From contig NZ_BMGM01000003.1 of assembly GCF_014640195.1 (NCBI RefSeq), forward strand, positions 124,001 through 188,000: a stretch of DNA of 64,000 nucleotides. Reading direction: 5' to 3'. Shown here piece by piece: positions 16,191-34,942 of this stretch; positions within the stretch are counted from its first letter, which is position 1, and each line of letters begins with the position of its first letter. The DNA comes from Psychroflexus planctonicus (lineage in GTDB: Bacteria; Bacteroidota; Bacteroidia; Flavobacteriales; Flavobacteriaceae). A program made the translations under genes and the position numbers. Below the pieces are notes generated by a model. It did not search any database. It saw only the letters and a program-made list of their open reading frames with translations, and was not told the origin of the DNA.

Positions 16191-16204
16191 ATGACAATTG
16201 TCAT
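16191..16204 (+). promoter_or_regulatory. Perfect 5-N4-5 palindrome, candidate Crp/Fnr-type activator site
   Basis: ATGACAATTGTCAT is a perfect 14-bp palindrome (ATGAC-N4-GTCAT), the geometry of Fnr/Crp-family sites. Its centre (16197.5) is exactly 33 bp upstream of the centre of the TATTTTTG box at 16227-16234, close to position -41 of the inferred transcript. No -33 TTG is present. Confidence 0.6.
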
Positions 16205-16226
16205 TTAAAAAATGGGACTTAGCTAT

Positions 16227-16234
16227 TATTTTTG
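16227..16234 (+). promoter_or_regulatory. -7 promoter element of the 44-residue protein gene
   Basis: TATTTTTG matches TAnnTTTG and lies 24 bp upstream of the ATG at 16259. The palindrome at 16191-16204 sits where the -33 element would be. Confidence 0.6.
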
Positions 16235-31867: not shown

Positions 31868-33094
31868 ATGGCACATCAACCAGCAAATGAGATACAAGAC
31901 TTACAATTTTTTGGCGAATTTGGCGGAGTAAATCCGTCTATATCCGATTCTTCTACTTATACTTTTATGAGTGCAAAAGCTATGATGGATACTTTTGAGG
32001 GAGAACAAGAAGGTTGTTATTTGTATTCAAGACATAGTTCGCCAAGTACACAATATTTAGCAGAAGCACTTGCCCGAATGGAAAATACTGCATCTGCTCA
32101 AGTATTTGCTTCTGGAATGGGCGCCATAAGTACAACACTTATGCAGCTTTGTAAGCAAGGAAATCACATTGTTTCTAGCCGAACTATTTACGGAGGAACC
32201 TATGCTTTTATGAAACACTTTTTACCCCAATTTGGTGTAGAAACTTCATTTGTAGATATAACCAATATCGAAGCCATTGAAGCAGCCATCCAACCACAAA
32301 CCAAAGTAATTTACTGTGAAACACTAAGCAATCCTTTATTAGAAGTTGCAGATATTAAGGCACTTTCTGTACTTGCAAAAAAACACCATCTAACTTTGGT
32401 AGTAGACAATACTTTTACGCCTTTATGTATTACGCCAGCAAATCATGGGGCAGATGTAGTTATTCATAGTTTAACCAAATTTATCAATGGAAATTCAGAC
32501 GCAGTTGGCGGAGCGGTTTGTGCTAGCACAGAATTCATAGAAAGCTTAAAAGATGTAAATCATGGAGCCGGAATGTTGTTGGGTCAAACCATGGATAGTT
32601 TACGAGCAGCATCCATATTAAAAAACCTTAGAACATTACCTATCCGAATGCAAAAACACAGTGCAAATGCATTGTATTTAGCGGAATTCTTTCAAAATTT
32701 AGGAGTGAAATGTGCTTATCCTGGACTGATGAGTCACCAAGGAAATCCTACTTTTAAAAAAATGGCAAATACTGAATTTGGGTGTAGCGGTTTATTCACT
32801 TTAGATTTAGGAACTTTAGAAAAAGCTACTGAACTAATGGAGCTTATGCAACATGAAAATGTGGGCTATTTAGCAGTGAGTTTGGGTTTTTATAAAACTT
32901 TATTTACAGCATCAGGAAGTTCTACTTCTTCCGAAATACCCGAAGATGAACAAAAAGAAATGGGACTTTCTTCTGGACTTGTTCGCTTTTCCATCGGACT
33001 AGATCACGATATACAACGCACTGCAATGCAAATTGAAAAATGCTTACTAGCTTGTGGTGTAATTGGTGTACCTAAAAGTTTAGATCTTTGTTAG
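31868..33094 (+). CDS. Cys/Met metabolism PLP-dependent enzyme (methionine gamma-lyase / cystathionine gamma-synthase type)
   Basis: A 408-residue fold-type I PLP enzyme of the Cys/Met family. It has YLYSRHSSPST, ASGMGAISTT, VVDNTFTPLCITP and the cofactor lysine in VIHSLTKFINGNSDAVGG. Closest in overall features to methionine gamma-lyases and cystathionine gamma-synthases; the substrate cannot be separated by eye. Its divergence from an Lrp/AsnC regulator suggests amino-acid-responsive control. A gamma-lyase would release thiol or sulfide, and a persulfide-detoxification operon lies just downstream under separate control. A terminator follows at 33127-33154. Confidence 0.88.
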   Translation: MAHQPANEIQDLQFFGEFGGVNPSISDSSTYTFMSAKAMMDTFEGEQEGCYLYSRHSSPSTQYLAEALARMENTASAQVFASGMGAISTTLMQLCKQGNHIVSSRTIYGGTYAFMKHFLPQFGVETSFVDITNIEAIEAAIQPQTKVIYCETLSNPLLEVADIKALSVLAKKHHLTLVVDNTFTPLCITPANHGADVVIHSLTKFINGNSDAVGGAVCASTEFIESLKDVNHGAGMLLGQTMDSLRAASILKNLRTLPIRMQKHSANALYLAEFFQNLGVKCAYPGLMSHQGNPTFKKMANTEFGCSGLFTLDLGTLEKATELMELMQHENVGYLAVSLGFYKTLFTASGSSTSSEIPEDEQKEMGLSSGLVRFSIGLDHDIQRTAMQIEKCLLACGVIGVPKSLDLC

Positions 33095-33126: not shown

Positions 33127-33154
33127 AAGCGAAGTCTAAGACTTCGCTTTTTTT
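33127..33154 (+). terminator. Terminator after the Cys/Met PLP gene
   Basis: AAGCGAAGTC (33127-33136) pairs with GACTTCGCTT (33140-33149) and is followed by seven or more T. The left arm can alternatively pair with TTCGCT at 33121-33126. Confidence 0.9.
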
Positions 33155-33258: not shown

Positions 33259-33272
33259 GTAACTTTAGTTAC
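33259..33272 (+). promoter_or_regulatory. Perfect 5-N4-5 palindrome, candidate Crp/Fnr-type activator site
   Basis: GTAAC-TTTA-GTTAC has perfect 5-bp arms. Its centre (33265.5) is exactly 33 bp upstream of the centre of the TATTTTTG box at 33295-33302, the same spacing as at 16191-16234. No -33 TTG is present. Confidence 0.6.
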
Positions 33273-33294
33273 ATGTGTTTTTGTGTCTATTCTG

Positions 33295-33302
33295 TATTTT
33301 TG
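33295..33302 (+). promoter_or_regulatory. -7 promoter element of the HMA/CstB-like operon
   Basis: TATTTTTG matches TAnnTTTG and lies 15 bp upstream of the ATG of the HMA gene. Confidence 0.6.
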
Positions 33303-33317
33303 TACAAAATAAATTAC

Positions 33318-33587
33318 ATGGAACTGAATTTTAAAGTACAAAATTTAAAGTGTGGCGGTTGTGCTAACAGCATAACCAAAAAACTTTCAAGCATACAAGA
33401 AGTTAACCAAGTAGAAGTAAATCCAGAAACTTCTATCGTCAGTGTAAAAGTAACTAAAACTGATGTAGAAGCATCTTTAAAGAAAGCTTTGCTTAATTTA
33501 GGTTATCCTGTAGAAGGCGATAAAAATGCCTTTAGTAGTAAAGCAAAATCCTTTGTTAGTTGTGCAACTGGAAGAATGTCTAATTAA
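33318..33587 (+). CDS. Small heavy-metal-associated (HMA) domain protein
   Basis: An 89-residue protein with a ferredoxin-like HMA fold. The metal-binding loop is LKCGGCANS, with a CxxC pair near residues 11-14, in a beta-alpha-beta-beta-alpha-beta pattern that ends near residue 68. A short tail contains another Cys (FVSCATG). HMA proteins bind Cu(I) or similar soft metals. Encoded 11 bp upstream of a persulfide dioxygenase-rhodanese gene, it may serve sulfur or soft-metal handling rather than plain copper export. The upstream frame extension was rejected because it overlaps the promoter. Confidence 0.85.
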   Translation: MELNFKVQNLKCGGCANSITKKLSSIQEVNQVEVNPETSIVSVKVTKTDVEASLKKALLNLGYPVEGDKNAFSSKAKSFVSCATGRMSN

Positions 33588-33598
33588 ATAAAAAAACT

Positions 33599-34942
33599 AT
33601 GAAAATCAAACAATTTGAAGATGCGCCTTTAGCGCATTATTCATACGCTATACTGAGCAAACAAAAAGTAATTGTAATAGATCCAGCCAGAAACCCACTA
33701 CCCTACTATCAATTTGCAGAAGAAAATGATGCTGAAATAATTGCAGTATTAGAAACGCATCCGCATGCTGATTTTGTGAGTAGTCATTTACAAATTCACC
33801 AAGAAACGGGAGCTACAATTTATGTGAGTAAAATGGTTGGTGCTGAATATCCGCACCAAGCTTTTGATGAAGGAAATCAATTTGAATTTGGAAATGCTAC
33901 AGTAAAAGCTATCCATACGCCAGGACATTCGCCTGATGGAATTAGTTTTTATGTTACCGATAAAAACAGCAATTCCAAAGCGCTATTTACTGGAGACACT
34001 TTATTTATTGGCGATGTAGGTAGACCCGATTTACGTGAAAAAGCGGGAAACATGAAAGCCAAACGCCAAGAATTAGCAGAAGCCATGTATAAAACCGTAC
34101 AAGAGAAATTCACTGACTTAGCAGATGATGTCTTGATTTATCCAGCTCATGGAGCAGGAAGTTTATGTGGTAAAAACATGAGTGATGCAGCAAGCTCAAC
34201 ATTAGGAAACGAACGTACTGGAAACTGGGCGTTTCAAGACCAAACTCAAGAAGAGTTTGTCAACGAAATTTTAAAAGATCAACCGTTTATTCCGAGTTAT
34301 TTCGGTTTTAATGTGGATATAAATAAAAAAGGAGCTGCCAATTTTCAACAAAGCACAAACGGAATTCCGTTGAAATTGTACACCAATACTATTGAAAAGC
34401 AGCTGCCAATTGTAGATGTTCGAGATGAAGCCGATTTCAAGAATGGTCATTTTGAAGGAAGTTTCAATATTATGGCTAGAAGCGAAAGCGATAAAATTGA
34501 AACTTGGTTAGGTGCGATTATTCAACCCGAAGAACAGTTTTATGTAGTAGTAAAAAGTGTGAGTGACATTGAAAGTATTTTAAGTAGAATTGCAAAAATT
34601 GGCTACGAAAAACAAATTGAAGCGGTATTAACAATCGGTCGAGAAGCCAAATTAGTTTCTACTGAAGTATTGGATGTTGAAGAGTTTAAAGCCAATAAAG
34701 AACAATACCACATCATTGACATTCGCAGTAAAAGCGAACATCAAAACGAAGTAAAGTTTGAATCTTCTGATAATCACCCATTAAATGATTTACGCAAATC
34801 TGCTGAAGAAATTAAGCCTAATAAACACGTTGTGGTTCATTGTGCAGGCGGTTACCGAAGTGCTGCTGGTGCGAGTATTTTAGAAGCCAAATTAAAAGGC
34901 AGTAAAGTATATGATTTAAGTTCTGCTATTGAAGATTTTTAG
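33599..34942 (+). CDS. CstB-like persulfide dioxygenase-rhodanese fusion
   Basis: A 447-residue protein whose layout matches the sulfide-detoxification enzyme CstB. The N-terminal metallo-beta-lactamase domain (about 1-245) has ETHPHADFVSSH, the HxHADF variant seen in CstB, plus HTPGHSPDG and FTGDTLFIGDVGRPD. A central rhodanese-like domain (about 260-350) lacks a catalytic cysteine. The C-terminal rhodanese (about 360-447) has an intact VVHCAGGYRSAAG with Cys near 415. CstB oxidises persulfides and releases thiosulfate. It shares an operon with the HMA gene, and their promoter has a palindromic activator-like site. Confidence 0.88.
   Translation: MKIKQFEDAPLAHYSYAILSKQKVIVIDPARNPLPYYQFAEENDAEIIAVLETHPHADFVSSHLQIHQETGATIYVSKMVGAEYPHQAFDEGNQFEFGNATVKAIHTPGHSPDGISFYVTDKNSNSKALFTGDTLFIGDVGRPDLREKAGNMKAKRQELAEAMYKTVQEKFTDLADDVLIYPAHGAGSLCGKNMSDAASSTLGNERTGNWAFQDQTQEEFVNEILKDQPFIPSYFGFNVDINKKGAANFQQSTNGIPLKLYTNTIEKQLPIVDVRDEADFKNGHFEGSFNIMARSESDKIETWLGAIIQPEEQFYVVVKSVSDIESILSRIAKIGYEKQIEAVLTIGREAKLVSTEVLDVEEFKANKEQYHIIDIRSKSEHQNEVKFESSDNHPLNDLRKSAEEIKPNKHVVVHCAGGYRSAAGASILEAKLKGSKVYDLSSAIEDF

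Follow-up and report, generated by a model that had tools for sequence, protein, structure and literature searches.

The promoter at positions 33259-33302 of the window (i.e. the whole 64,000-nucleotide stretch of Psychroflexus planctonicus DNA under analysis) is one member of a family-wide sulfur-stress regulon of Flavobacteriaceae, in which the class II geometry is fixed and for which a 217-aa Crp/Fnr-family protein is a strong candidate as regulator; activation and direct persulfide sensing by this protein are predictions. Three parts of the following mechanism are our inference: that the regulator activates and does not repress, which signal it responds to, and what its cysteines do. A dimer of the 217-aa protein would bind GTAAC-N4-GTTAC centred at -41.5 and would touch sigma region 4 and RNA polymerase in place of the missing -33 TTG contact, so that the promoter, with its TAnnTTTG box at -12 to -5, would be switched on. 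The targets would comprise persulfide dioxygenase (PDO)-rhodanese, SQR, TauE/SafE and YeeE transporters, thioredoxin, peroxiredoxin, cytochrome bd and TolC efflux. The TCxMTxxCC cysteines of the regulator, placed where other Crp proteins hold the cyclic nucleotide, would most likely be modified by persulfides or polysulfides, and this modification would make the protein competent to activate. We assign a probability of roughly 80% to this explanation as a whole (i.e. a Crp/Fnr protein that activates a sulfur-stress regulon from -41.5, its cysteines being most likely persulfide-modified).

The operator GTAACTTTAGTTAC (33259-33272, plus strand) is a 5-N4-5 palindrome to which, judging by its sequence, spacing statistics and orthologous operons, a Crp/Fnr-type activator very probably binds. 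It is followed, after a spacer of 22 bp, by the -7 box TATTTTTG (33295-33302, plus strand; TAnnTTTG, Bacteroidota sigma-A), the centres of the two elements (33265.5 and 33298.5) lying 33.0 bp apart. Since TAnnTTTG occupies -12 to -5 according to transcription start mapping in Flavobacterium psychrophilum (PMC9723704), the palindrome is centred at -41.5 and the start is predicted at 33307 (plus strand); with the F. psychrophilum start as reference, a two-fold symmetric site thus occupies the class II position. The sole TTG between operator and box (33281-33283) is found 11 bp from the box, and therefore a -33 TTG at a spacer of 17-23 bp is absent from this interval. The 33.0-bp distance from GTAAC-N4-GTTAC to the box and the missing -33 TTG had both been claimed in the original prediction, and both were confirmed from the sequence. 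Binding at -41.5 is the classical arrangement of class II activators of the Crp type.

The first gene of the operon (33318-33587, plus strand) encodes an 89-aa heavy-metal-associated (HMA) domain protein with a KCGGC motif (PF00403, 2.7e-13), has genus orthologues in the same place and starts 3' of the promoter, the 104-aa open reading frame from 33273 being a mechanical call. The C-terminal tail of its product, KSFVSCATGRMSN, contains an additional cysteine (the counterpart in locus L127 reads KSFVSCAIGKLSQ) and may have a metal or sulfur-carrier function. The second gene (33599-34942, plus strand) encodes a 447-aa predicted persulfide dioxygenase-rhodanese of the CstB type, in which an MBL fold (PF00753, 8.6e-16) is followed by two rhodanese-like domains (PF00581, 1.5e-17, in two stretches), the last one with the active-site cysteine (HCAGGYRS loop); it matches the PDB entries 3tp9 (9e-58) and 3r2u (1.5e-55). 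Upstream of CstB-like orthologues the promoter (palindrome, spacer of 22 bp and box, with small mismatches in box or site allowed) was recovered at 35 of 41 loci in 40 genomes, and in most cases within the genus an HMA gene is found too, with the promoter in front of it. On the upstream side the operon is adjoined by a gene (31868-33094) for a PLP enzyme of Cys/Met metabolism (best NCBIfam match methionine gamma-lyase, below the cut-off), a predicted product that might supply sulfide or methanethiol. An intrinsic terminator read from the sequence (33129-33154, plus strand; GCGAAGTC-TAA-GACTTCGC and then a run of T) stands between this gene and the operon promoter.

Within the window, two perfect 5-N4-5 palindromes occur at spacer 22 versus 0.24 per other spacing (P about 0.025), which by itself is weak evidence; the genome-wide evidence for a fixed spacing is decisive. 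Pattern searches, together with retrieved stretches, of the P. planctonicus genome (3.11 Mb, 34 contigs) detected nine instances of GTAACN4GTTAC followed by TAnnTTTG within 7-37 bp, six of them at spacer 22 and one at 21 (in a range of 31 spacings), while the reversed-pattern control gave no match in this genome. Of its 15 palindromes, 12 are followed at spacer 21-22 by a -7-like box with no more than one mismatch, and the remaining three are situated inside long open frames. The 147 matches listed for 99 other Flavobacteriaceae genera (18 genera being left out of these statistics) fall at spacer 22 in 111 cases, at 21 in 12 and at 23 in five, with the other 19 scattered over the remaining 28 spacings (fewer than one per spacing outside 21-23). 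In the surroundings of the regulator gene in 80 named genomes, spacer 22 accounts for 96/103 palindrome-box pairs, and when all possible palindromes at this spacer were counted in the same loci, the GTAAC half-site occurred 96 times and the next one twice. A phylum-wide pattern scan placed the on-spacing sites in Bacteroidia; few matches were seen outside this class, most of them with a different spacer. The outcome that had been named beforehand as contrary to the prediction, a random placement of the palindromes relative to TAnnTTTG, is excluded by the counts from the own genome, the listed family matches and the regulator loci alike.

The motif derived from 211 sites is T-GTAAC-N4-GTTAC, with a TTG at spacer 17-23 in 3% of them. 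Directly after the right half-site, T (57%) and G (55%) prevail at -34/-33, and the left outer base is T in 77% of the sites at -49, with no symmetric A on the right-hand side; owing to this asymmetry the TG may be the remnant of a -33 element whose TTG has degenerated and overlaps with the site of the activator. We also observed that TAnnTTTA replaces TAnnTTTG at the exact spacer of 22 bp in loci L083, L094, L096, L097, L100 and L102, as well as at the cydA gene of P. planctonicus (G000:C3:220805); since many spacer-22 sites are of this form, the final G of the box looks dispensable at such promoters.

A Crp-type DNA-binding domain is detectable in exactly two of the proteins that the P. planctonicus genome encodes, and one of them, the 217-aa Crp/Fnr-family protein (G000:C3:67272-67922, on the contig of the operon), co-occurs and is linked with the sites; thus a single Crp/Fnr protein fits the GTAAC-N4-GTTAC class, as judged by comparative genomics. 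Its orthologues (E<1e-50) were found in 84 of 100 genera and, among the matches listed, on-spacing sites are present in 53/66 genera with the regulator versus 1/16 without it (Fisher p=4.9e-8). In 38 of the 80 named loci the regulator stop codon has a site beginning no more than 250 bp away on the same strand, and therefore the next operon begins there; over the 80 loci, 95 of 99 on-spacing sites lie on the regulator's strand. Two findings count against our reading: 13 genera have a regulator orthologue and lack the exact site, and in P. planctonicus itself the regulator gene adjoins no site.

An alignment of 35 sequences revealed that T82-C83, M85 and C89-C90 (TCxMTxxCC), together with the recognition helix S187-R188-V189-V190-x-S192-R193 (SRVVxSR), are constant in all close orthologues, and that both the cysteine loop and the helix are changed in a divergent paralogue (L152). 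This paralogue (G044:C35) lacks all three cysteines, has an SREA helix and is encoded just downstream of a GTAAC site. A persulfide sensor would be expected to carry at least two conserved reactive cysteines, and the candidate has three by conservation (C83, C89 and C90). When the regulator was aligned pairwise with structures of the CRP family, C83-C90 fell in the nucleotide-binding loop, which in CRP binds the cAMP phosphate. The PDB relatives of the regulator are 3dv8 (uncharacterised), NtcA and CRP, and two of its cysteines are found in 3dv8 (as C-x5-C). An AlphaFold2 model combined with a fold search recovered the Crp fold, the model being unreliable in the cysteine loop (pLDDT <50).

The 12 sites of the P. 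planctonicus genome precede trxA, the HMA-PDO operon, a porin gene, cydAB, tolC-MFP, SQR, tauE-PDO2 and a 1-Cys peroxiredoxin gene, and furthermore a Tll0287-type cytochrome c with a carbonic anhydrase, yeeE with a divergently encoded CBS protein, a putative methyltransferase gene and a gene resembling sterol desaturases. The names porin, methyltransferase, CBS, carbonic anhydrase and sterol-desaturase come from reading the sequences and not from a domain scan. Across the family, 129 sites were selected purely by their DNA pattern; the gene that comes first under them encodes a PDO-rhodanese in 34 cases, TauE/SafE in 26, TolC in 20 and a thioredoxin in eight, followed by cytochrome c, SulP and YeeE (four each) and others. 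In loci L024, L030, L042, L154, L166 and L199, the first gene under a GTAAC promoter encodes a protein of about 120 aa that has a signal-like stretch at its N-terminus and matches no Pfam family. On the strength of its predicted products, the regulon is one of sulfur metabolism (PDO-rhodanese, TauE/SafE, YeeE, SulP, SQR, thioredoxins, peroxiredoxin and cytochrome bd). It also includes targets that are not specific to sulfide (cydAB, cytochrome c, porin, TolC efflux and the sterol-desaturase-like gene), which count against our reading. At the level of genome comparison, the site, its spacing, the content of the regulon and the co-occurrence and linkage of sites with the regulator are established.

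The presence of cydAB, cytochrome c and SQR in the regulon would also suit a sensor of oxygen or of general redox state (FNR-like or disulfide-switched), whose sulfur genes would follow since sulfide oxidation needs a terminal oxidase, and disulfide formation or cluster binding by the three conserved cysteines is conceivable. The cluster motif of FNR is, however, N-terminal, whereas the conserved cysteines lie in the cassette loop, and the largest gene classes under the sites are PDO-rhodanese and TauE/SafE; we regard such a sensor as unlikely, while granting it appreciable weight. It is improbable that the palindrome is a repressor operator over the -33 region from which sulfide lifts repression (as with SqrR, BigR and CstR): the site does span -48 to -35, where a repressor could block RNA polymerase, but repression does not require a spacing fixed to one base (111 of the 147 listed matches at 22), and the missing -33 TTG and the classical class II activator position at -41.5 speak against it as well. 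In favour of repression, several of the known persulfide sensors are repressors (review PMC9774590).

The HcpR identity, the natural literature match for the motif, was rejected on two grounds, the lack of hcp in all 100 genomes and a different recognition helix. The published HcpR2 motif (Rodionov 2005, PMC1274295) is identical to GTAACnnnnGTTAC, and HcpR2 and the 217-aa regulator are both Crp/Fnr proteins. Against this likeness, Hcp (PF03063), the companion of HcpR2, was found in 0/100 family genomes (a control search detected it in 5/14 reference genomes), CRP position 181 is Pro in HcpR2 and Val here (34/35 sequences; Glu in the divergent paralogue L152), and no HcpR-named entry appeared among the matches listed in the PDB profile search (best 3dv8, NtcA and CRP). 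Cytochrome bd, a member of the regulon, also protects against NO, as would befit a haem/NO sensor of the HcpR2 type with the operon in a nitrosative-stress regulon, but the regulon content is sulfur metabolism, and we consider such a sensor very unlikely. Hardly any credence is left for a chance palindrome beside an ordinary promoter: the window alone would leave room for it (two such pairs, P about 0.025), but the spacing peaks in the own genome, the family and the regulator loci tell against chance, and it is refuted by the conservation of the promoter upstream of orthologous operons (35/41 loci).

Besides the circuit that we ascribe to the 217-aa activator, the window contains a second promoter (16191-16234), in which ATGACAATTGTCAT (ATGAC-AATT-GTCAT) is followed by N22 and TATTTTTG with a centre distance of 33.0 bp. 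The other Crp protein of the genome is a 346-aa fusion of receiver, cNMP-binding and Crp-HTH domains encoded on contig C1 (L206, G000:C1:230500-236500), in the order histidine kinase-like gene, fusion regulator, WTGAY-N4-RTCAW site and universal-stress-like gene. The site (C1:234069-234112, minus strand; spacer 22) is situated just downstream of the fusion gene, and L206 may be seen as a second Crp circuit of the same geometry. Across the family, FNR-like TTGAY-N4-RTCAA palindromes fall at spacer 22 in 21 of 113 cases (other spacings average 3.1), and the ATGAC site at 16191 fits the fusion paralogue by half-site similarity only. The original prediction had attributed the shared geometry and the different half-sites to two paralogues, which holds, as there are two Crp proteins, each with its own half-site class peaking at spacer 22. 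Its further suggestion of a redox- or sulfide-responsive activator is supported by the regulon content and the three conserved cysteines, with the signal itself being predicted.

Flavobacteriaceae are abundant heterotrophs with genes for sulfide and persulfide oxidation, and in the open-access library searched we found no account of how these are switched; likewise, no published Crp/Fnr sulfur regulon or its regulator in this family was found there. As a candidate regulator, its recognition sequence, a one-base spacing rule, a target list and three cysteines to mutate are now in hand, the question of switching becomes directly testable. Moreover, predicted class II activation at the unusual core promoter of Bacteroidota is clearly exemplified here by comparison, and GTAACN4GTTACN22TAnnTTTG provides a simple pattern for annotating sulfur regulons across many genomes.

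Among known systems, the class II promoters of E. coli-type CRP and FNR share the dimer site at -41.5 that overlaps the sigma region 4 element, but are built on TATAAT and TTGACA, whereas the promoter here is of the Bacteroidota kind, whose core elements are TAnnTTTG at -12 to -5 and a -33 TTG; the regulators differ as well, the 217-aa protein having TCxMTxxCC in its cyclic-nucleotide cassette. The HcpR2 regulons of Bacteroides, Clostridia and Thermotogales (PMC1274295) resemble the present one in the palindrome GTAACnnnnGTTAC, in the Crp/Fnr regulator and in a regulator gene that is often beside its targets, and differ from it in Pro at CRP position 181 and in their hcp targets (here Val, sulfur genes and no hcp in 100 genomes). 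Furthermore, haem binding has been reported for HcpR (PMC13370916), while the 217-aa regulator has a cysteine loop. With the cst operon of Staphylococcus aureus the operon shares a gene of CstB layout (MBL and two rhodanese-like domains; 3r2u, 1.5e-55), but control there is by the CsoR-like CstR, whereas here an HMA gene and a Crp-type site precede the CstB-like gene. In the part of the review PMC9774590 considered here no Crp/Fnr persulfide sensor is named. We lean towards a new class of persulfide sensor, i.e. a Crp/Fnr activator whose cassette would have been turned into a three-cysteine TCxMTxxCC switch, which would control a complete sulfide/persulfide-oxidation regulon across Flavobacteriaceae and fill the -33 role at TAnnTTTG promoters. 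CstR, SqrR/BigR and FisR (PMC9774590) likewise control sulfide/persulfide-oxidation genes and several have conserved cysteines, FisR being, like the proposed 217-aa regulator, an activator with three of them; these proteins are of the CsoR, ArsR and Fis types, whereas the 217-aa regulator belongs to the Crp/Fnr family.
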